Shown here piece by piece: positions 10,462-29,849 of a stretch of DNA of 59,421 nucleotides. This DNA comes from Mariniblastus sp. (lineage in GTDB: Bacteria > Planctomycetota > Planctomycetia > Pirellulales > Pirellulaceae), in contig JALZWN010000143.1 in NCBI GenBank assembly GCA_023300235.1, positions 1-59,421 on the forward strand, read 5' to 3'. Positions within the stretch are counted from its first letter, which is position 1; each line of letters begins with the position of its first letter. Position numbers and translations under genes: made by a program. Under the pieces are notes generated by a model. The model had not been told where the DNA came from. It did not search any database and saw only the letters and a list, made by a program, of their open reading frames with translations.

Positions 10462-13400
10462 TTATTCTTCTTCCTCGCGACCGATTTGATCGATGATCTT
10501 GTCGTAGTTTTCAAGCGTGGCGTCGGCGGCTCGTTTCAAGCCGTCGGCTTCGGGGAATACTTCCGATAGCTTTAAGATCGGCTCCATCCACGTCTGTAAA
10601 ACCCGGAACTGGTTGCGAATGATGTCCAAGAAGATATTCGGGACCTTGTTGATGATCTCGATCTTCTGCTCCGACGGAGCCATTGCCATTGGGGTTGCAG
10701 CGCCCGGCGATCCACTGGCGGTTGCCGACAGGGCACCCGTTTCTAGCATCGTCTTCATTTGCTCAAGCGACTTATTAAAGCTCGATAGTTCGCTAACCAC
10801 TTGGCCGACTTGGTTCATCGTCGTGGTTTCGGTTTCTGTCGGTGCTTGTTTGGCGGTCAAGTGTTGCACGCCAGTGTCCAACGCCGATCGAATGTGGTGT
10901 AGACCTTCGCTAAAACTGGTTAGCTGCGCAATCACTTGGCCCAGTTGACCGTCGTCGCCGGCGGCACCGAGTACGAGATTCCGTTTGAAGGTCCGTTTGA
11001 TATCAGACCAGCGTGCGAGTTCTTCGCCAGCCAGTTTGCCCGTCAGTTCGCCCAGCTTGAGTAAGTTCGCTTGTGCGCCCGAGGTCAAGGTTTGGGCTTG
11101 GTTTAGGTAGTGACCGTCGATCAAGGTGTCCAGTTCTTGGTCGTTCATGATCGGAGCGATCGCTTCGGAGATTTTGTTCATATCACGATACGAACCTTGC
11201 AGCTTGAACGCCGGTTCGATTCGGTATTCGTCCGCTTGAGCGGCCGAGTCGATGTACTCGCGGTTGACGCGAAGAATTACGTCGCGAGCGATCAGCAATT
11301 TTTTCATCACCGATACGAACTCGTTGATCTCTTCGATCGAGTAGCTGCCTTCGAGCGTTTGCGGTTGGTCGTCGCCCTGTTCGGCCATCTTGATGATCGT
11401 GTAAACGTCGGCACGTGAACGAGAGTTTAAACGAGCCAGCGTCGAGTTGGACGTTAAGCAGTTTTCCAGATAGCTGAGTTCGAACGAACCTTCGTTGCCG
11501 CCGATGACGTCACCCAAGTTGTAGGTGTCCGCACGTGAGGCGAGCATGTCAGGGATCTGGAACTTCTCGCCCGATTCAGTGTACGGGTTACCGGCCATGA
11601 CGACCGCGACTTTGCGACCACGAAGATCGTAAGTCCGCGTCTTGCCGCCGAATACACCTTCGATACGACGCGTGGCGTCACACAACGAGATGAATTTTTG
11701 GAGTAACTCTGGGTTGCAGTGTTGAATGTCGTCCAAGTAGATCATCACGTTGTCGCCCATTTCCAGTGCGAGGTTTAGTTTTTCAACTTCTTCGCGAGCA
11801 CTGGCGTTGGGGGCTTCGGTCGGATCGAGCGAGGTGACTTCGTGGCCGATCGCCGGGCCGTTGATCTTCATGAAGGTAATGCCAAGTCGGTTGGCAATGT
11901 ATTCCATCAACGTCGTTTTACCGTAACCTGGAGGCGATACGAGCAACAGCAAGCCCATCAGGTCGGTACGTTTGTCTTCGCCAACAACGCCGATTTGCTT
12001 GGCGAGGTTCGCACCGACCATTGGCAGGTAGGTGTCGTTGATCAATTGGTTGCGGACAAAACTGGTCAACACGCGTGGCTTGAACTCTTCCAATTTGAGT
12101 TCTTCGCGGCGAGTGTCGATGATTTCCTTTTTCAAGTGCACATAGGCTTCGAAGGCTGGGACCGTCGTTGCTGCAAACAAGTTCAAGCGAACGATGAAGT
12201 CGTTGTAGTCCAGGTGATACGTTTTGCCTTCAACTCGGCGATGGTCGCCCAGCAGGCCCGTGACATTTTGTTCGGGCGAGATGGCGGTGGTGGTTCGTTT
12301 TTCGATGGAACCGTCGACCAGCATCATCGCTACTTCTTCGACGTAGCGAGCGTCTAACGAATCGGTCGATTGGTCAACGAAGGCAGCGATCCATTGCTTG
12401 GCGGCGCCAAAGCGTGCCACGGCGGTCAGTTGACTGCCGTTGATCGCAGCAAATTGGTCGGTCGCTGATTTCTTTTTCAGGAAGGCCAAGAACGAATCCG
12501 CGATGTGCTTCGCGTCTTGACTGCAAGCCAGTTTTTCTTGGGTGGAAAACTGATCAAACAAATAGTTAGCGGCTTCGCTGGCAAATTGATCATTCGCAAA
12601 CGGTTGGCGTTCTAGTTCTTGTTCAATCTCTGCGTGTAGAGCACTGACGTACTTTTGACGGTCGGTGATGTTGCCAAAGACCGTCCGCGCCGATTGGAGG
12701 ACGCTGAATTGGTTTTCCCAATCGGTGCGCCAGTCGGAGCCTTCTTTGATGAGCCAGAAGACGCCGGCCAATGTGCGGGCTTGGGTCGAGTACTTCAACA
12801 AGCCCAAGTTGCGGTCCAGCTTTAACAGTGGCTTGAGGATCTTGGCGGCGTCGTGATCGTGAACACCTTTGACGTAGCCTTCGCTGTATCGCGGGGCCAT
12901 GAAGGCTTGCACCGTTTCGAGAAGCCTCGCATCATCGTCGGCTTCGGTTGGGTCTTCTGATTTTGGTAGTTCAATTTCGCCAGCATTGATTTGATTCAAC
13001 ATCAAGTACGCTAAGTACTCGCCGCGGTAAACTTCGCGGTTTTCAGAAACCACCGGTTGGTTCCAAACGGCCTTCGTTGCCATGAGTTCTGGGTGGGTGA
13101 CTTTTTCGAAGTAGTTCGTACCACTTAAGTGGAAGAACATATCGCCGTCTTTGATGACGGTGGTCAATTCCAAGGCTTGCGTGTTGACCGAGAACTTATG
13201 CTTTCCGAACTGGATGATGTTCTGGCCATCGACGTACAGTTCGTTTTTGTCGCGCAGTTGGCGGACGGTATCTTCGCGAACCGTCTTTAGTCGGCTTTGT
13301 ACATCGTCGACTTTGACCGATTCGCCCATCTTCGCCAGTTTGTCGATGATGTCACGGACCTTGTCGATCATCAAATCACTAGCAAAGTAGCTGTTGATTT

Positions 13401-15801
13401 CGTCAACCGATTCAAAGTTTGAAACGCGAGACGCAATGCCTTTGATGATTCGATCGGCAGCCTGCATCAACGAGGTCGCTCGTTTGTTGCGAGATTCGAC
13501 CAGTTGTAGTTTTTTGGTATCGAAAGCCGCGTAGATCTCTTCACGCTTTTCGGCCAGCTGGATGATAAATTCGTCGAACTCAGCAAACTTGCCTTCGAGT
13601 TCTTCGACTTGCACCATCATCTTGGTTAAGTATTCATCGCAGCGTTCTGGCGAATCGCAAACGTCCAAGTAGTTCACGACCGCTTGGCTGATCAGTTTTA
13701 ACTGGCTGTTAAATTCAGCAGCGCCTTCGACAGACAGCAAGGCCTGTGATTTTTTCTTGAGCGTGGCGCGGGTTTGGTTCAGGCTGGAATAGATCGCTGA
13801 GATGTTGTCGATGATTCGAGTGCGTTGAGTGGCGTCTTCGATCTTCAGGTTGCTGACGATCTCGATCAGCATCTCAAGCTCCCCTGCCCCGGCAGCGATT
13901 TCCTGGTCCAGCTTTTTGGCTTGTAGGCCGGTCTTGAGGGCTTCGATTTGTTGAAGTTGGTCGGCGACACGCTGGGTGTAAGGGGCGAGTGAGTTTTCTT
14001 TGAGCAGGAACTCAACGCAGCGAGTGGACAGTCGGTCTGAGTTTTCAGCAACTTTGGTTTCTAGTGTTGCGACATCTTCGAGGTCGACGTACTTGAGTTC
14101 TTTCAAGCTGATGACTTGGCCGCGCACGGTGCGCAGTTCGGCCAGTGACTGCACAAAGTCGTCGATGTGTTTGAAGTGCCGACTGGTGGCGGTGACGACT
14201 GCATCGGTAGCTGCTTTGGCGACGGTCGCAAACTGTTCGGCAGTGTTCTTGCGAACGCGAACGACTTTGTCGAACTCGTCGACCGCAGCGGTCGCAGCAT
14301 CGCGGATTTGGGACAGCGGTTCTGATAGCTGGAACGTGTTTTCGTCGGTTAACCAGAAGTAGGAGTCTAAGATGTCGGTCGACTTCTTGACCAAGTCCAC
14401 GTACAAACTGGTGTAGCTGTCGTCTTGGTCGATCAGGTTCATGACCTCGTGCGATTCTGACATCGCGCGGACGATTTCTTTGTTGCCAATTTTGTAGACG
14501 TAAGAATCGGTTTGCTCGCCAACCTGAAAGTCTTCGCCAACGTAAGGCGTTTGCCAGACCTGCATCGCGTGGTGCTTTTGCGGATCGACGTCGGATTTGA
14601 AGTAAACCAATTCGCCGTTGTCAAAGATCGAGAAGCCACTGCAAACGATCGGCGTCGCGACGACTTGTTCGATCATGTTGTACGACAGCAAAACCTTTTG
14701 GCCGGTGTCTGGGTTTGAGAAGACGTACAAATAGTCTTCGCCGTTGCTGGCTGCGATGCGGCGTTCAAACTGCAGGTTGCTGACGTTGCTTTCAAAGGTT
14801 TTGAAAACACCGGTCTGCAGGTAATAGCCGTTGGAGAAAATCAGGCCGTGGTCTTCTGGCAAGAAAACACAGGCGTCGGCGATTGAATCCAAGCGTCGAG
14901 CGGTTTGAGTTTTTTCGTTGAAGACGAGGTAGCGATAAGCGTCTTCTTTGAATGGCTTGATCTTGAGCAAGATGATGTTGCCAACGATCGAGTAAAAGTA
15001 CTCGGCGTCGTCGAGCGTTTGATCGGGGTCGTCGACGGGTTCGGCGTAAATTCCGGAGCCGTCTTCGGTGTTGTCTTCGATTTTGATTGTCAGGTCGCCG
15101 CCGACGGTTTCTACAAACACGCGGTCGTCGATCGAAATGTGCGGGTGTTCGCCGTCGCGGTGTAGGTCGCGCTGAGTGCGAATCCATTTGAAATCGTGCT
15201 GGGGTGGTTTGACGATTTCGTGATCGCTGCGGTTGTCGATGTAGGTTAACGTGCCATCATCGCCAACGACAAATTTGAATGATTTGATGTCGGTGTGTGA
15301 TTTTCCGATTTGAAAAACCAGGTGCAAGTGTGGGCCCGCGGTGTAAAACCGTTGGAAGTGGGTGTCTTTGTAGTATTTGTATAGACCTGCGAAGTCCTTT
15401 AGGAACTGGGGATCGCTGAGCAATTCGAGCGATTGCTCGTGCATGCTGCCTTCGGCGAACTTGTAAATGCCAAAGACGTCTGCGAGGTCGGTGGTGGTTT
15501 TCAGGCCCAGGTGGACGTTGTAGCCAAAGATGAATTGTTCGCCCAGCGGGAAGATGTCTTGGGCGACGCAGTTGTTGGCGGTGGTGATCCGCTGAGTTGA
15601 AATCAGTTCGGTGGGGATGCTGCCGAAAACGGATCGGCGTTCCTCGTTCAATAAGCCAAGGCGCGAACGGAGTTCGGTCGCGTACGATTGCAAGCGGCTT
15701 TTGATGATCTCGTAGGTGCCACGTTCTAGCTGCGGTCCGGCGGATGCAGTTTCTTCGACGGGCGTGTCGAGATTTTCAGGTTGGTTTTGATCGGTGGACA
15801 T
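10462..15801 (-). CDS. DUF3686-type AAA+ ATPase (annotated family: ATPase involved in DNA repair), 1779 aa
   Basis: A very large cytoplasmic ATPase. Residues about 20-500 match what I recognise as the DUF3686 region, beta-rich with repeated propeller-like strands. Residues about 500-900 are long coiled coils (Glu/Lys/Gln-rich helices). The AAA+ module of MoxR/dynein-like type is in the last third: Walker A SPPGYGKTTLM near residue 1290, Walker B MIYLDDIQH near 1347, and sensor-1 VVMAGNPYTESG near 1403. A helical tail ends in acidic EEEE. There is no signal peptide or membrane segment. It is third in a minus-strand set after the YqiJ-like and flotillin genes, from which a 217-base structured spacer separates it. 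The DNA-repair label is a family name only; the context suggests membrane-microdomain-linked remodelling. Start ATG at 15801. Confidence 0.9.
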   Translation of the reverse strand: MSTDQNQPENLDTPVEETASAGPQLERGTYEIIKSRLQSYATELRSRLGLLNEERRSVFGSIPTELISTQRITTANNCVAQDIFPLGEQFIFGYNVHLGLKTTTDLADVFGIYKFAEGSMHEQSLELLSDPQFLKDFAGLYKYYKDTHFQRFYTAGPHLHLVFQIGKSHTDIKSFKFVVGDDGTLTYIDNRSDHEIVKPPQHDFKWIRTQRDLHRDGEHPHISIDDRVFVETVGGDLTIKIEDNTEDGSGIYAEPVDDPDQTLDDAEYFYSIVGNIILLKIKPFKEDAYRYLVFNEKTQTARRLDSIADACVFLPEDHGLIFSNGYYLQTGVFKTFESNVSNLQFERRIAASNGEDYLYVFSNPDTGQKVLLSYNMIEQVVATPIVCSGFSIFDNGELVYFKSDVDPQKHHAMQVWQTPYVGEDFQVGEQTDSYVYKIGNKEIVRAMSESHEVMNLIDQDDSYTSLYVDLVKKSTDILDSYFWLTDENTFQLSEPLSQIRDAATAAVDEFDKVVRVRKNTAEQFATVAKAATDAVVTATSRHFKHIDDFVQSLAELRTVRGQVISLKELKYVDLEDVATLETKVAENSDRLSTRCVEFLLKENSLAPYTQRVADQLQQIEALKTGLQAKKLDQEIAAGAGELEMLIEIVSNLKIEDATQRTRIIDNISAIYSSLNQTRATLKKKSQALLSVEGAAEFNSQLKLISQAVVNYLDVCDSPERCDEYLTKMMVQVEELEGKFAEFDEFIIQLAEKREEIYAAFDTKKLQLVESRNKRATSLMQAADRIIKGIASRVSNFESVDEINSYFASDLMIDKVRDIIDKLAKMGESVKVDDVQSRLKTVREDTVRQLRDKNELYVDGQNIIQFGKHKFSVNTQALELTTVIKDGDMFFHLSGTNYFEKVTHPELMATKAVWNQPVVSENREVYRGEYLAYLMLNQINAGEIELPKSEDPTEADDDARLLETVQAFMAPRYSEGYVKGVHDHDAAKILKPLLKLDRNLGLLKYSTQARTLAGVFWLIKEGSDWRTDWENQFSVLQSARTVFGNITDRQKYVSALHAEIEQELERQPFANDQFASEAANYLFDQFSTQEKLACSQDAKHIADSFLAFLKKKSATDQFAAINGSQLTAVARFGAAKQWIAAFVDQSTDSLDARYVEEVAMMLVDGSIEKRTTTAISPEQNVTGLLGDHRRVEGKTYHLDYNDFIVRLNLFAATTVPAFEAYVHLKKEIIDTRREELKLEEFKPRVLTSFVRNQLINDTYLPMVGANLAKQIGVVGEDKRTDLMGLLLLVSPPGYGKTTLMEYIANRLGITFMKINGPAIGHEVTSLDPTEAPNASAREEVEKLNLALEMGDNVMIYLDDIQHCNPELLQKFISLCDATRRIEGVFGGKTRTYDLRGRKVAVVMAGNPYTESGEKFQIPDMLASRADTYNLGDVIGGNEGSFELSYLENCLTSNSTLARLNSRSRADVYTIIKMAEQGDDQPQTLEGSYSIEEINEFVSVMKKLLIARDVILRVNREYIDSAAQADEYRIEPAFKLQGSYRDMNKISEAIAPIMNDQELDTLIDGHYLNQAQTLTSGAQANLLKLGELTGKLAGEELARWSDIKRTFKRNLVLGAAGDDGQLGQVIAQLTSFSEGLHHIRSALDTGVQHLTAKQAPTETETTTMNQVGQVVSELSSFNKSLEQMKTMLETGALSATASGSPGAATPMAMAPSEQKIEIINKVPNIFLDIIRNQFRVLQTWMEPILKLSEVFPEADGLKRAADATLENYDKIIDQIGREEEE

Positions 15802-15839
15802 GTTATTCAGTCGCTAGTCGGAAAACATTCAGGGCCTCG

Positions 15840-16003
15840 TCACAAACTCGCCTGTCACTGAGCGTAGCGTTGGGCGACAGATGCGAGAAGTTTGTGAAGT
15901 TCGTGAAGTTGAGGCGAAGGGGTTGAAGTGCGTCTTCGGCGACGAATGTCTGGTGTTAAAAACCGGACATCTGGATGCCAGTGTTGAGCCTCGCATTCGT
16001 CGC
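15840..16003 (-). other. Highly structured spacer between flotillin and ATPase genes
   Basis: Two strong foldable units lie in the 217-base spacer. The first is a hairpin with 9-bp perfect outer arms, TCACAAACT (15840-15848) and AGTTTGTGA (15889-15897), continuing inward through CGC/GCG and CTGTC/GACAG with small bulges. The second has 10-bp perfect arms, GCGACGAATG (15939-15948) and CATTCGTCGC (15994-16003). These enclose an 8-bp stem with one wobble (about 15947-15969, competing for two bases) and a CTGG-ATG-CCAG stem (15971-15981), so it can fold as a three-way junction. It starts 15 bases after the flotillin stop in the transcript. No T-run follows, so it is not a simple terminator. It could be an mRNA processing or stability element, an attenuator, or a dispersed palindromic repeat. 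Confidence 0.55.
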
Positions 16004-16018
16004 TCGGGTTAGTACGCG

Positions 16019-18067
16019 CTACGACTTAACCGCTTTGACTGCGTCCAGTATGGTGCCAGCGTTTTGGTCGGCGACTCCCGCACGGCTGGCGGTAGTCATC
16101 AATGATTGCAATTGGCCAAGGACTCCTTTGTCCGAAGTCGATGCCATCATCTTACCGATCAAGACTGCTACTGAAAGGTTTTTCAGGTCTTCTGAGGTCA
16201 CACCGAACATGTCGACGTACTTGGTGATCTGCTCTTGAAGTTGAGCAGGATCGCCGGTGAAGAAGGTATCCTTCACGTCTGAAAGCACTTCGCTGTTGCC
16301 GACCAAGCGATCGACTTGCTTGCCAGCAGTGATCGAGTTGACGATGCTGTCGAAGAACTTGTTGTCGCCGCCGACGATGTCGATGTTGGCATTGACCAAA
16401 GCTTCGGCAATCATCTTGGCTTGAGCTTCGGCGATCAGGCGTTGGGCGTCGATGGCTTGCAGTTCGATGTCCTTTTCCTTGTTCAGCTTGAGCTTGAACT
16501 CTTCGTGCTCGCGTCCGACACCGTCGAACAGCTTCATCGCTTCGGCTTTTTCGGTGATGCCTTGTGCGTCGGCTTTGAACTTCAGTTCAGCAACTTTGGC
16601 TTCGGCAGTACCTTCTTTTTCGATGGCGGCTGCTTTTTCCATGGTAACTTGAGCTTCGGCCAAGCCAAGAGCGGCGGTTTCCGCTTGAGTCGCTTCGGCC
16701 AGCATTTTCTTGGCCTCGGTTTGCTTTTCCGCCGCGGTGCGTTCAGCTTCTGCTCGAACGATCACGGTTTCGGCTTCCAGTTCAGCGGCTTGCTTTTCCG
16801 CTTCGGCTGCTTTGACTTCGGTGACCAGTTTCTGTTCGGCTGCTTCTTCGGCCGCGGTGACTGCGACTTGTTTTTTACGGTCAGCAGCAGCGAATTCGCG
16901 GGTGTCTTTGATCTTTTCTTCTTCTTCGACAACCGTTCGTTCGACCATCACGCGGTCTTTGATCACGTCTTGGATGTTTTTCTTTTCGACTTCGATCGCT
17001 TTTTCTTTTTCGATCTCTGCCAACGTAACGACTCGTTCGCGTTCGGCGATTTCCAAACCACGGTCTTTTTCGACGCGTTCGGTTTCGACGGCGTCGGTTC
17101 GTTCCTTGCTCTTGGCGGCAACGATCACGGCACGCATGCGGTTTTCTTCGGCGATTGCGATTTCTTCGTCGGCAGTGATCCGAGCCAATTCGGATCGCTG
17201 GCGTTCTTGTTCTCTGACGACAGCTGCTTCGGCTTCTTGACGAGCGGTGATTTCAGCGATTTCGCGTTCTTGTTTTTCTTCAGCGTCAACTTGCTGGCGT
17301 TCGAGTTGCAAAATGGCTTCGCGAGCTTCAACGTCTTGTTTCTTGAGTGTCTTTTCTTTTTCGCGAGTAATCTGGTTTGCCAGCGTGATCTCGTGAGAAG
17401 TCAAGTCGGTGATCTTCTTGATACCTTCGGCGTCCAGAACGTTGTTTGGGTTGAGCTTCTCAAGTTCGGTTTGTTCTAAGTAATCGATGGCACAATCGTC
17501 CAGGACGTAACCGTTCAAGTCGGAACCGATAACTTCAAGGATTTTGTTGCGGAACGCTTCGCGGGTATTATAAAGTTCGACAAAATCAAATTGCTTACCC
17601 ACGGTCTTCAGAGCTTCAGAGAACTTAGGCTCAAAAACGCCACGCAGGGATTCTAGATCAGACGCTCGGCGGCAGCCCAGGAAGTTTGCGACGCGTTTGA
17701 CGTCGTCGACTTCTTTGTTCACGCGAACAAAGAAAGCAACCTTGATGTCGGCACGGATGTTGTCTTTACAGATCAACCCGTCGACGCCGCTTCGGTCGAT
17801 TTCGATGCGTTTGACGGAGATGTCCATCATTTCGACGATGTGCAGTACTGGCACGACCATCATTTTGTCAAAGCTGACTTCGGTTCCGCCTTGACCGGTT
17901 TTGATTAACGCCGTTCCTTGGGGAACTTTGCGAAGGCACTTGATGTAGTAGGCGACGAAGCCAAGTCCTAAAATGGTTATTGGAATAGCCACGATCAATA
18001 AAATATCGAAGACTGTTCCGAACCATCCATTAAAAAATATGCCGGCAAAAATAAGTGTGTTATTCAT
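16019..18067 (-). CDS. Flotillin/YqiK-like SPFH-domain membrane protein
   Basis: A 682-residue flotillin. It has an N-terminal hydrophobic anchor at about residues 15-42 (LLIVAIPITILGLGFVAYYI), then an SPFH/band-7 domain at about 45-215 that includes ALIKTGQGGTEVSFD and the IEIDRSGVDGL segment. A very long Ala/Glu/Lys coiled coil follows (about 230-560), then the flotillin C-terminal region with the conserved ALVNANIDIVGG-type motif. Flotillins oligomerise in ordered membrane patches. The length and long coiled coil resemble E. coli YqiK. The ATG overlaps the stop of the upstream YqiJ-like gene by one base, so the two are almost certainly translationally coupled. That pairing is the known YqiJ-YqiK/NfeD-flotillin association. 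Confidence 0.93.
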   Translation of the reverse strand: MNNTLIFAGIFFNGWFGTVFDILLIVAIPITILGLGFVAYYIKCLRKVPQGTALIKTGQGGTEVSFDKMMVVPVLHIVEMMDISVKRIEIDRSGVDGLICKDNIRADIKVAFFVRVNKEVDDVKRVANFLGCRRASDLESLRGVFEPKFSEALKTVGKQFDFVELYNTREAFRNKILEVIGSDLNGYVLDDCAIDYLEQTELEKLNPNNVLDAEGIKKITDLTSHEITLANQITREKEKTLKKQDVEAREAILQLERQQVDAEEKQEREIAEITARQEAEAAVVREQERQRSELARITADEEIAIAEENRMRAVIVAAKSKERTDAVETERVEKDRGLEIAERERVVTLAEIEKEKAIEVEKKNIQDVIKDRVMVERTVVEEEEKIKDTREFAAADRKKQVAVTAAEEAAEQKLVTEVKAAEAEKQAAELEAETVIVRAEAERTAAEKQTEAKKMLAEATQAETAALGLAEAQVTMEKAAAIEKEGTAEAKVAELKFKADAQGITEKAEAMKLFDGVGREHEEFKLKLNKEKDIELQAIDAQRLIAEAQAKMIAEALVNANIDIVGGDNKFFDSIVNSITAGKQVDRLVGNSEVLSDVKDTFFTGDPAQLQEQITKYVDMFGVTSEDLKNLSVAVLIGKMMASTSDKGVLGQLQSLMTTASRAGVADQNAGTILDAVKAVKS

Positions 18068-18807
18068 TAGTTATTCTCCCACTTAGTTTGTTCAACTAAA
18101 AAGGTCCCGTCTTCATGGTTGTAAGAAATGATTTTTGCGACATCACCTTTGGTAAGGCGGTGTCCCGCTGCGACTCTGATGTTTAAAGTTATTTCTGGTT
18201 CGTTGTCTGGTTTGACTTCCATTTGACCGAAACGTTCGGTGACTTTGTCCGTCTTAACTGTGCCCTTCAAGCCGACCATTTTTAAACGGCCGCGATCTTC
18301 AGGGGCTGATTTGCGTCCGATTGCCGCTGCTGGAATCACGACGACTCGTGCGACCAGCAGTGCCACGATGCAGTTGGGGACAAACCAAAGTAACGATAAG
18401 GCAAACGAACCCGTTGGATTAAAAAGTAAATTTAGCGTGACGTTTGAGATCCAAAATCCAAGCATCAGTGCGGTGCCGACGATGACGACCGGTACGTCAC
18501 TCATGTACAAGAACTCAACCAACGGCCGGAGTGGGCTGTTGCCGGCATTGGAGCTTCCTCCTCCGCCATCCAGCTCAATGTCCGCGCCGCCTGCATCCAA
18601 AACGCTACCGCCGGTATCAACTTCGACTTCAGGTGCGACATCCAAGTCGAGATCAATGTCAACGCCGGGATCGACATCGATATCGATATCAAGTGTGTCC
18701 ATGCCTACTACTCCGACGATCATCAACATCCAGTATGCGACAATGGCGGTCATTGCCAGCGTGGGGAAGACGTTGGCTTCGTTGAACAGTAGGTAGATGG
18801 TTTCCAT
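18067..18807 (-). CDS. YqiJ-like (NfeD-related) OB-fold membrane protein
   Basis: An inner-membrane partner of the flotillin. It has a hydrophobic segment near the N terminus (ALTMTAIVAYWMLMIVGVVG region) and two further membrane spans in the middle (VPVVIVGTALMLGFWISNV and SLLWFVPNCIVALLVARVVV). The C-terminal soluble beta domain of about 80 residues fits an OB fold. Between the first and second spans is a striking alternating Asp/Val/Ile/Leu stretch (DTLDIDIDVDPGVDIDLDLD), then a Gly/Ser-rich hinge. The ORF track starts at TTG 18822; I prefer ATG 18807 (METIYLLF), although neither has a clear ribosome site. The one-base TAATG overlap with the flotillin gene indicates an operon. Confidence 0.82.
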   Translation of the reverse strand: METIYLLFNEANVFPTLAMTAIVAYWMLMIVGVVGMDTLDIDIDVDPGVDIDLDLDVAPEVEVDTGGSVLDAGGADIELDGGGGSSNAGNSPLRPLVEFLYMSDVPVVIVGTALMLGFWISNVTLNLLFNPTGSFALSLLWFVPNCIVALLVARVVVIPAAAIGRKSAPEDRGRLKMVGLKGTVKTDKVTERFGQMEVKPDNEPEITLNIRVAAGHRLTKGDVAKIISYNHEDGTFLVEQTKWENN

Positions 18808-18822
18808 GTTGGCGGGTAACAA

Positions 18823-21909: not shown

Positions 21910-22866
21910 TTAGTAACCAATCGTTGGTGGGTTTGGATCCAAGAAGTCGCGAGGAGCCCGAGTGGTGTAGTACGGGTAAGCGTACGTTGGGATCTGGCCA
22001 GCTGGTCCGGCTTGTCCGCCACCGTGAATCGTTGGATCGCGGTGTGGAATGGATCCTGCTCCGGGGCCTACGCCCAAAGCAGTTCTAGATGCTTGGAGGC
22101 GAGCGCGGCAGCTGCTGCAAAGACCACCCGGTCCGCCACAACCGCGTGTACCGCATCCGCCACTTTGGTGTGTTCGACTGCTGCGGCCAAAACTGAAGCC
22201 TCTTAGTAGACCGCGACGATCGTTGTGACTGGCAAGTTGAAGTCCGCTCCCTTGGGCTGCACCTTCGAAACCGTGTTCGACGCTGTCGCCCATCGAGAAT
22301 TCAACAGGTCCAGAAGCTGAGCAACCGCAATCGGTTCCCAGCATGGTTGGGGCTGGTGTGCCGCAACCGCAATCGCCAGCGGTGTCGATTTCAGCTGCAC
22401 CGTCGCAACCACCTGCACCGTCGCAACCACCTGCGCTTTTGCAGCCACAGCCACGACCAATGTTGCCGACGTTACTTTGCAAGCGACTTGCGACGCGATC
22501 AGCGAGTTGGGGTCGCTTGAGTTTGCATGTTCGGCATCCGCCGTTGCAGCCTTCTGCTTTGCAAGAAGGTCCTGCTTCACTCAAGCCTAGTCCTAGTCCT
22601 GTTTGTCCGCCGTAGTTTTTGTTGGCAAACGCGTTTGCACTACCGGAGTTGCCACAGTCGCCTGAGCAAGATTGGTCGCCACAGCTGCTCGTCTGGCCAC
22701 ATCCGCAACTGGATTCACCGCCTCCGGAGGAGCCTATGTTGCCTATGACGTTACCGCCGCCAAGGATGCCTTGGCCACAAGAGCCGCCGCAAGGGCTAGT
22801 GCTCGAGCAGCCCGCGAAGTTAAGGGCGAACAGGCATGCGCCCATAGCAAGCATAAGAGATCGCAT
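21910..22866 (-). CDS. Cys/Gly-rich lipoprotein, 318 aa, about 25 cysteines
   Basis: An exported lipoprotein: the N terminus MRSLMLAMGACLFALNFAGC has a hydrophobic core and ends in a lipobox-like FAGC. By hand count the protein holds 25 cysteines, mostly as CGC, CxxxC and GGCDGAGGCDGA repeats in a Gly/Ser background, in three clusters separated by cysteine-free stretches. The final 22 residues are Tyr/Pro-rich (YPYYTTRAPRDFLDPNPP). Similar Cys-rich surface proteins with a PRDF-NPP-type tail are common, as far as I know, in planctomycetes; their job is unknown. Disulfide cross-linking in the envelope or metal binding are the obvious options. The strong repeat content makes many shadow ORFs on the other strand. 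A perfect palindrome lies 97 bases upstream of the ATG. Confidence 0.82.
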   Translation of the reverse strand: MRSLMLAMGACLFALNFAGCSSTSPCGGSCGQGILGGGNVIGNIGSSGGGESSCGCGQTSSCGDQSCSGDCGNSGSANAFANKNYGGQTGLGLGLSEAGPSCKAEGCNGGCRTCKLKRPQLADRVASRLQSNVGNIGRGCGCKSAGGCDGAGGCDGAAEIDTAGDCGCGTPAPTMLGTDCGCSASGPVEFSMGDSVEHGFEGAAQGSGLQLASHNDRRGLLRGFSFGRSSRTHQSGGCGTRGCGGPGGLCSSCRARLQASRTALGVGPGAGSIPHRDPTIHGGGQAGPAGQIPTYAYPYYTTRAPRDFLDPNPPTIGY

Positions 22867-27932: not shown

Positions 27933-29849
27933 ATGGTTGTTTTTGAAGATTGCTTTTTTCTCAGAAAGTGTTTCGCTTTGCGTTGCATCGATTACCCCAC
28001 CCGAATTTTGTCAGTTTGCATGCTGGCAGTCGCTGTTTGTGCGAACACGTTTGCTGGCGAACCGGTCCGGCCGCATCCAACTTCGTTGGTGAACGCCGAG
28101 GTGTTCGTCAAGCGAAAGAGTTTGTCGATGCGAGTGACTTGCTTCGCCGAAGATCTAGAAATGCTGCAAGGCGTCGAGGCGCTGGAGACGGGGTTCTACG
28201 ATTCTGACGAAATCAAAGACGCAACCCAAGACCACGCAAAGTACTTGGCCGAGCGGTTGACGATTCGCGATGTCAAAGGCGAGCTGCTGACACCAAAAAT
28301 TAGCGAGATTGTTGATGCGGAAATCCCCGCCGGCGGTATCCCCGCTAACAAGCTAATGGAGTATCAGTTGGAGTTTGTGTTTGATTATAAATACGATACG
28401 CCGCCGGAGTTCATCACGATCCAGCAAAACATGGTGGCCGACGGAGCGTTGTTGCCTTCGGAATTTAGCGTGCTGCTCAAGCAGGCGGGGTCGGACAAAC
28501 CTTACCGAAAGATGCTCAAGCCGCTGGAAGCTGAGACCTTTCGATTTGACTGGGACAATCCCGCGTTGAACGAAGAGGATTCGGACGAAGATTGGCAAGC
28601 GTGGTTTGATGTGCAGCGCGAAAAAACGTTGGGCATTTCCAGCTACGGCAGCGTTTATTCTTTTATCTATATCACGGACCATGAAGTCCGACACGAGGTT
28701 TTGATTCCGCTGGCGACATTGGCGTTGTTGGTTGACATTGAGCGGGCAGATGAAAGTTTTTTGGAAGTCGATGAGCAAGCGGCGGCGGCTGAGAAAGTGA
28801 AAGCGTTTTTTGGGGCTGGCAATCCGGTTACGATTGACGGTATCGAAGTCAAACCGGTGTTTGACCGAGTCGATTTTTATGGGTTGGACTTGAGCGACTT
28901 TGCGGTGCGACCAGAAAAACGAAAAGTCTCGATGGCCAGTGGGCGGGTCGGGGTGATCATGTCTTATAGTGCCAAAAGCCGGCCGACGGAGGTTTCGGTT
29001 GAATGGGATTTGCTGAGCAACACCATTCGCGAAGTGGACTCGGTGGTGATCGCTTACCAACAGGTCGACAAAACTAAGTTCTCCAAATTTCTGAGTGAGA
29101 ACGTTTATCGCTGGACCGCGCCGGATCGACCTCCGTTGCCACCGATTACGGAATTGAGTGGAACGATCGATTGGCAGAAGTACCGACCGACGTTGACGGT
29201 ATCTTGGGCGACTATCGGTATGTGGATAGCTGCGGCGTTGCTTATGCTGGTGGGAGCGTTTTTTGCGAGTTCGGTTTGGCCGTACTTAATTCTGGCAGTT
29301 GGTAGTTTGGTCGGTTCCTATTTCGTTGCAGATCTCGCCGTCGCGACTTACGATCACCCTTGGCGGCAGCCCGAGCAGTTTCAGATTTCGGACGACGAAG
29401 CGGCCGATGTTTTTGGTCGGCTGCATGCGAACATCTTTCGAGCGTTTGACTACGTGGACGAAAGCGATGTTTATCAGGCGTTGGCCAAGAGCGTTGATGG
29501 CGACCTGTTGCGAGATTTATATTTACAGGTCAATGCATCGCTGCAAGTTCAGGAGCAAGGTGGTGCCGTTGCGGTGATTGAGAAAGTTCAGCTGGTAGAA
29601 GGGAATCTTCTGCCAGCGTCTGAGGCTGACAAGCGTTCTGCTGTCAGTTTTGGTTACCAGGCCAATTGGACTCTCGATGGGACCATTGAGCACTGGGGGC
29701 ATATTCACCAGCGGACCAATCGGTACCAAGCTCGTTTTGTGGTGGAGCTGTTGGGCGCAGAGGATCGCACGGGCGGCTGGAAAATTACAGGCATCCAGGA
29801 CCAGGAATTCAGGCCGGGGGTGGTCAAGCGTCGTTTGCGGAAGTTCTAA
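27933..29849 (+). CDS. Exported membrane protein of unknown function, about 620-638 aa
   Basis: I do not recognise a named family. The ORF-track ATG at 27933 adds a cysteine-rich lead; a TTG at 27978 or ATG at 28020 would place a signal peptide directly at the N terminus (TRILSVCMLAVAVCANTFAG). The exported part (about residues 45-420) is beta-rich, with long acidic segments. Two adjacent membrane helices follow at about 425-465 (TIGMWIAAALLMLVGAFFASSVW, YLILAVGSLVGSYFVADLAV). The C-terminal 180 residues are soluble, with ADVFGRLHANIFRAFDYVDES and a strand-rich end that looks like a SnoaL/NTF2-type cone. A surface sensor or assembly factor is possible but not shown. It stands alone. Confidence 0.8.
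   Translation: MVVFEDCFFLRKCFALRCIDYPTRILSVCMLAVAVCANTFAGEPVRPHPTSLVNAEVFVKRKSLSMRVTCFAEDLEMLQGVEALETGFYDSDEIKDATQDHAKYLAERLTIRDVKGELLTPKISEIVDAEIPAGGIPANKLMEYQLEFVFDYKYDTPPEFITIQQNMVADGALLPSEFSVLLKQAGSDKPYRKMLKPLEAETFRFDWDNPALNEEDSDEDWQAWFDVQREKTLGISSYGSVYSFIYITDHEVRHEVLIPLATLALLVDIERADESFLEVDEQAAAAEKVKAFFGAGNPVTIDGIEVKPVFDRVDFYGLDLSDFAVRPEKRKVSMASGRVGVIMSYSAKSRPTEVSVEWDLLSNTIREVDSVVIAYQQVDKTKFSKFLSENVYRWTAPDRPPLPPITELSGTIDWQKYRPTLTVSWATIGMWIAAALLMLVGAFFASSVWPYLILAVGSLVGSYFVADLAVATYDHPWRQPEQFQISDDEAADVFGRLHANIFRAFDYVDESDVYQALAKSVDGDLLRDLYLQVNASLQVQEQGGAVAVIEKVQLVEGNLLPASEADKRSAVSFGYQANWTLDGTIEHWGHIHQRTNRYQARFVVELLGAEDRTGGWKITGIQDQEFRPGVVKRRLRKF

Follow-up and report, generated by a model that had tools for sequence, protein, structure and literature searches.

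A giant DUF3686 AAA+ ATPase co-inherited with a flotillin and a YqiJ-like protein in Mariniblastus sp. as a candidate flotillin motor

Flotillins are known as ATP-independent scaffolds. Their pairing with a YqiJ/NfeD-type membrane protein is older knowledge and is exemplified by YqiJ-YqiK of E. coli and YuaF-FloT of B. subtilis, both NfeD2-SPFH2 pairs (PMC2636767), and the FloA-NfeD pair of S. aureus holds unfolded proteins without ATP (PMC11222466). Operons in which a band-7/flotillin protein and a YqiJ/YuaF protein are accompanied by an AAA+/beta-propeller protein were described by Ravi et al. 2024 (PMC11237479). In that work, the ATPase was reported to be present "in some cases", both within a CesT/Tir-PspA operon and in abbreviated operons, and PspA encoded elsewhere was suggested to serve the latter (PMC11237479). 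The name DUF3686 is not used by Ravi et al. and was not met in the literature searched; from the identical architecture and neighbours, we infer that their ATPase is a DUF3686 protein.

Here we describe a locus from Mariniblastus sp. that has the membrane partners of the Ravi et al. operon, an AAA+ protein with an N-terminal propeller and a coiled coil, and, in relatives, optional PspA, CesT, and PLD genes. It differs from the full operon in that PspA and CesT are missing from the operon and PspA is not detectable in the genome. With YqiJ-YqiK and YuaF-FloT it shares an operon that places a long flotillin gene behind the gene for a NfeD/YqiJ-like protein, whereas those pairs have no ATPase. 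Likewise, the FloA-NfeD holdase combines a flotillin with a NfeD-type partner but works without ATP; here, a dedicated ATPase joins the pair. HflK/C-FtsH, an SPFH cage with an AAA+ protease, also joins an SPFH assembly to an AAA+ motor; however, FtsH is a membrane-anchored M41 protease, whereas the 1779-residue DUF3686 ATPase contains a propeller, no transmembrane segment was found in it, and it matches no peptidase family in Pfam. The MoxR AAA+ proteins (CbbQ, NorQ, RavA) have the same motor fold and the same arginine and sensor residues, but are about 300 residues long and VWA-paired, unlike this much larger protein with its propeller and coiled coil, which has no VWA gene nearby. The earlier note had presented the ATPase as an open third member beside the known YqiJ-YqiK pair. 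Its standing as a fixed partner is borne out below, although a third member had already been reported by Ravi et al. 2024. What is new is the near-obligate linkage seen from the side of the ATPase, the finding that the ATPase and one flotillin subfamily are present or absent together, the agreement of their trees even between phyla, and a case in this clade that speaks against dependence on PspA.

The window is the whole of contig 143, 59,421 nucleotides, from a Mariniblastus sp. genome of 4.7 Mb that is distributed over 311 contigs and is 94.8% complete. The minus strand carries, in this order, the genes for a YqiJ/NfeD-like protein, a flotillin, and the giant ATPase (Table 1). The open reading frames and the sequence agree with the earlier note, which had read three adjacent minus-strand genes and a one-base overlap, TAATG, in which the upstream stop codon TAA runs into the flotillin start codon ATG ("aactaatgaat"). 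The first open reading frame extends over 18067-18822 on the minus strand if an alternative TTG start at 18822 is used. The spacer ahead of the ATPase gene has no clear terminator or promoter on the minus strand, the scan result being within chance, and it folds modestly better than shuffled sequences (z -2.2; 4/200 shuffles were equally good). The module is flanked by a divergent aspartate kinase gene, a convergent pseudopilin gene, cyclophilin genes, and tRNA synthetase genes. The neighbours checked within about 10 kb encode a pseudopilin, two cyclophilins, a methyltransferase-like protein, aspartate kinase, Tyr-tRNA synthetase, Arg-tRNA synthetase, and a TPR protein. Two long open reading frames near the module (window 21910-22866, 318 aa; 27933-29849, 638 aa) are without a Pfam match at E 0.001.

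Table 1. Positions of the module and its parts in the window
Feature	Coordinates	Strand	Description
YqiJ/NfeD-like membrane protein	18067..18807	-	246 aa, ATG at 18807; 3 hydrophobic stretches; C-terminal OB-like region
Long flotillin (SPFH/Band_7)	16019..18067	-	682 aa, ATG start
Spacer between flotillin and ATPase genes	15802..16018	-	217 nt
Giant DUF3686 AAA+ ATPase	10462..15801	-	1779 aa, ATG start
DUF3686 domain	14356..15675	-	ATPase residues 43-482; Pfam
Long helical/coiled-coil region	13237..14325	-	ATPase residues about 493-855; contains DUF7902 (604-686)
AAA+ motor	11032..12069	-	ATPase residues about 1245-1590; Pfam and structure model

The full-length flotillin, with its coiled coil, returned no Pfam match and was recognized only when its N-terminus was scanned alone (Band_7, E=3.4e-9), a result that confirms the long flotillin proposed from the sequence. 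The protein consists of a hydrophobic N-terminal membrane segment, the Band_7 domain, a long coiled coil, and a conserved C-terminus. It thus has the SPFH domain, the membrane anchor, and the adjoining NfeD-type gene that characterize SPFH2 proteins. A sequence search of solved structures with the flotillin returned nothing. The assignment of the upstream gene, which had been taken for an OB-fold membrane protein of the YqiJ type, stands with one qualification. The hydrophobic stretches agree with the three transmembrane segments of the YqiJ/YuaF-type protein in the Ravi et al. 2024 operon, and 12/36 members of the family match YqiJ_N and 3/36 the NfeD C-terminal domain, but the copy in the window scores only E=0.43 against YqiJ_N, below the Pfam cut-off. 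We therefore use the YqiJ/NfeD name for this protein because members of its family match one or the other profile.

The ATPase is a DUF3686 protein, matching the full profile of PF12458 (1-448) with E=4.2e-186 and 619 bits against a cut-off of 25. Additional Pfam matches are DUF7902 (E=2e-27) and, at about residues 1285-1414, AAA (E=1.8e-8) and AAA_5 (E=7.5e-7). When the full protein was compared by sequence with solved structures, only P-loop similarity to CDC48/RuvB emerged. Structure models support the architecture read from the sequence in the earlier note, that is, a propeller-like DUF3686 region, long coiled coils, and a MoxR-like AAA+ motor. Residues about 61-420 are modelled as a beta-propeller, with a mean pLDDT of 90 over residues 1-560, and the structural neighbours of this part are nearly all propellers (best Z 9.2). 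Between this part and the AAA+ domain, the model shows a stretch of long helices (493-855), then a small beta domain and a helical linker. The motor residues comprise the Walker A sequence SPPGYGKTT, the Walker B sequence YLDDIQH, which ends in DD instead of DE, sensor-1 N1405, the arginine R1423, and sensor-2 R1539, and all of them are 100% conserved across 122 sequences. Among solved structures, the modelled motor comes closest to two members of the MoxR family, CbbQ (Z 15.9, 251 aligned) and NorQ (Z about 15), and then to dynein AAA1 and the second domains of ClpA/ClpB. The model contains a pre-sensor-1 beta-hairpin (strands 790-795/798-803 in model numbering, corresponding to residues 1379-1392). 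Elsewhere in the model, a loop leads into an unbroken helix (744-759, model numbering), with no clear beta-alpha-beta helix-2 insert. Based on these models, the assignment of the motor as MoxR-like is supported.

Gene linkage was scored with profiles built in this analysis on two sets, 40 planctomycete loci and the best 80 of 538 contig matches in other genomes; the denominator was the 100 loci whose contig reaches 3.3 kb or more beyond the DUF3686 gene on its upstream side. In this sample, which is not an unbiased census (close relatives are over-represented in the planctomycete set, and the other set leans toward relatives of the planctomycete query), a flotillin gene lies within 6 kb upstream of the DUF3686 gene in 98/100 loci and a YqiJ-like gene in 95/100. 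The order YqiJ-flotillin-ATPase is nearly always kept, and the linked loci span Planctomycetota, Bacteroidota, Verrucomicrobiota, Desulfobacterota/deltaproteobacteria, Bacillota, and others. In the two loci with no local flotillin (L112, L119), the same flotillin type is found beside its own YqiJ gene elsewhere in the genome. Loci from a plasmid collection gave 11/11 for flotillin and 10/11 for the YqiJ-like gene; the records fall in four phyla (Gammaproteobacteria, Actinomycetota, Deinococcota, and Bacteroidota), and the carriers are Pseudomonas, Vibrio, Photobacterium, Halomonas, Proteus, Streptomyces, Nonomuraea, Deinococcus, and Hymenobacter. The earlier note had proposed the ATPase as a fixed third member and had suggested scoring the neighbours of DUF3686 genes, with a preponderance of loci lacking flotillin or YqiJ as the outcome against it. 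That outcome failed to appear, and these counts, together with the joint presence and absence of the genes and the congruent trees described below, support the proposal.

Some loci depart from the usual arrangement. A Bacteroidota locus (L148) has the YqiJ-flotillin pair divergent from the ATPase gene, so that linkage outlasts the loss of operon order. Two Verrucomicrobiota loci (L160, L167) have flotillin and ATPase genes without a recognisable YqiJ-like gene and with a PLD-like gene downstream; in these, the membrane partner may have been replaced.

Within the phylum, presence of the genes is all-or-none, contig ends aside. Among 294 genomes of the phylum, DUF3686 is found in 39 and the triad-type flotillin in 41, which include the same 39; in the two extra cases, only 51 and 263 bases of contig remain beyond the flotillin gene. 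Within the phylum genomes examined, every triad-type flotillin whose downstream DNA was readable was accompanied by the ATPase. In a set of 60 relatives, DUF3686 and the triad-type flotillin each occur in 26 genomes, and the four discordant genomes are explained by cuts at contig ends. Two of the relatives have only a distant SPFH match, which is a distant flotillin/NfeD pair without the ATPase in G041 and a marginal SPFH match in G030. Other flotillin subfamilies (150-240 bits) occur without a DUF3686 ATPase, and DUF3686 was found in 0/14 control genomes, E. coli among them. The module is missing from more than half of the close relatives and is therefore accessory.

The trees are congruent as well. 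Distances for the ATPase and the flotillin correlate with r=0.88 over 103 loci and with 0.83 when only between-phyla pairs are used, whereas swapping partners within phyla gave a mean r of about 0.35 and never reached the observed value in 500 trials. The YqiJ-like protein, which is short and fast-evolving, gave correlations of 0.63-0.68. Since the same cross-phylum nearest neighbours recur in all three genes, as in the planctomycete/lentisphaerian pair L075/L156, the gene trees suggest that the module has been transferred between phyla as a block. Chance adjacency was rejected on the linkage, presence/absence, and tree tests. Taken together, the three genes form one co-inherited module, and we conclude with high confidence that they share a function, although co-inheritance does not imply physical contact.

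Our working model, to which we give an even chance of being correct, is that the soluble ATPase is a dedicated flotillin motor that acts on the flotillin/NfeD scaffold by ATP-driven remodelling. Together, the flotillin and its YqiJ/NfeD-like partner would assemble into an oligomeric inner-membrane scaffold, and the ATPase would dock there, with the N-terminal propeller and the coiled coil as its probable contacts. Powered by ATP, the MoxR-like AAA+ ring would then reshape the scaffold, open it, or take it apart, or would pull on the proteins contained in it, and the ATPase would serve as the dedicated motor of an otherwise ATP-independent flotillin holdase. In some lineages, the ESCRT-III-like protein PspA and a CesT-type chaperone would join without being required. 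The model starts from computed results, namely the gene structure, the domains, the intact motor residues, the near-obligate linkage, the all-or-none presence in the phylum, the matching trees, and the lack of a detectable PspA here and in complete relatives, and to these it adds a putative physical contact, docking site, substrate, and direction of work, as well as a predicted membrane localisation and energy-driven remodelling. Points against the motor model are that the ATPase gene has its own 217-nt leader, that 2/100 loci do not lie beside a flotillin gene, that the module is accessory, and that many flotillin/NfeD pairs of other subfamilies, as in E. coli and G041, do without such an ATPase. 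A flotillin subfamily that is almost never without a giant ATPase is a concrete and testable candidate for an energy-driven flotillin machine. A more specific and tentative version is a membrane-remodelling machine independent of PspA, in which a flotillin/NfeD cage and a giant MoxR-like motor, docked through the propeller, have spread between phyla as a unit. If true, this would be a flotillin disassemblase or an energy-driven flotillin holdase.

The name under which the ATPase circulates points in another direction. Both the Pfam description and the genome annotations call it a DNA repair ATPase, RuvB and MCM are among the PDB neighbours of the motor, and the Bacteroidota loci carry a divergent HTH regulator with an S24-like (LexA-like) domain. 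The similarity to the RuvB P-loop is weak, however, and lies below the cut-offs (RuvB_N, 24.7 bits versus 27; NCBIfam RuvB, 25 bits versus 282), and no ABC/SMC family was found among the Pfam matches of the ATPase up to E=1, so that an ABC/SMC/Rad50 head is lacking and the motor is instead an AAA+ domain closest in structure to CbbQ and NorQ, which remodel protein complexes. No repair gene recurs in 118 neighbourhoods, and none is among the neighbours checked within about 10 kb here, as the earlier note had stated. The view that the protein is a repair enzyme placed beside the flotillin incidentally is highly improbable, incidental placement being untenable because the membrane partners are fixed, and identity as a DNA-repair ATPase was rejected. 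The earlier note's doubt was justified, and the widely propagated annotation, which finds no support beyond itself, should be corrected. A defence system was likewise rejected, with no useful PADLOC match and the ATPase carried by no phage. The structural proximity to CbbQ and NorQ, which activate single client enzymes, also fits a chaperone of the MoxR type devoted to the maturation or insertion of one specific membrane or metallo-protein complex, for which flotillin and YqiJ would be only a membrane anchor. We consider this unlikely: no constant client gene lies beside the module across phyla, no VWA-domain partner was matched in the neighbours scanned or among the identified recurrent clusters in relatives, and flotillin and YqiJ are the only constant partners.

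Another rival reading is an arm of the phage-shock (PspA) response to membrane stress. Just as Vps4 drives the disassembly of ESCRT-III, the ATPase could disassemble PspA/ESCRT-III-like polymers, while the flotillin would bring PspA to the membrane, an arrangement outlined by Ravi et al. 2024 (PMC11237479). In 17-19 of the sampled loci, most of them from Bacteroidota, genes for a CesT/Tir chaperone and for PspA do stand immediately before YqiJ-flotillin-ATPase, and PspA genes share one gene run with the triad in the plasmid pQBR103. In the present locus, however, the CesT/Tir-PspA dyad is absent, and the 94.8%-complete genome gave no match to PspA_IM30 (PF04012) in a search that was positive in 9/14 controls, nor any member of the divergent planctomycete PspA-like family. 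G033 and G042, module-bearing relatives assembled as single contigs, likewise gave no PspA match. Among the 60 relatives, PspA occurs in 7/26 genomes with the module and 14/34 without it (Fisher p=0.29, a descriptive value because the genomes are related). On this genomic evidence, PspA is an optional partner of the module in this clade, given its absence from the searches of these three genomes and the lack of association in the 60 relatives. We regard a phage-shock arm as doubtful, and the idea that the operon relies on PspA elsewhere in the genome fails in this planctomycete order.

The optional genes vary with lineage. Those recurring in the sampled loci are PspA (19), the CesT-type chaperone (17), the HTH/S24-like regulator (21), and the PLD-like gene (6). 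The regulator is a divergently encoded HTH_3 protein of Bacteroidota (L158:4804-5556 and 20 further loci) whose S24/LexA-like C-terminal domain scores just below the Pfam cut-off; its catalytic serine is not evident by eye, and it may sense stress without self-cleavage. On pQBR103, a Pseudomonas plasmid (L176:1043-14247), a yjf-type operon and the triad form one gene run, in the order YjfI-PspA-rhomboid-DUF2491-DUF350-DUF1190-glutathionylspermidine synthase and then YqiJ-flotillin-ATPase. Five loci from planctomycetes and a lentisphaerian (L079:8063-10925, L081:6-2350, L087:5-2599, L094:2716-5335, and L156:4135-6708) encode a PspA-like coiled-coil protein, the one scanned copy of which is without a Pfam match, together with a second AAA protein whose AAA domain occupies its second half. 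Ravi et al. 2024 (PMC11237479) mention a PspA plus two-AAA pair, which the pair found here beside the module resembles.
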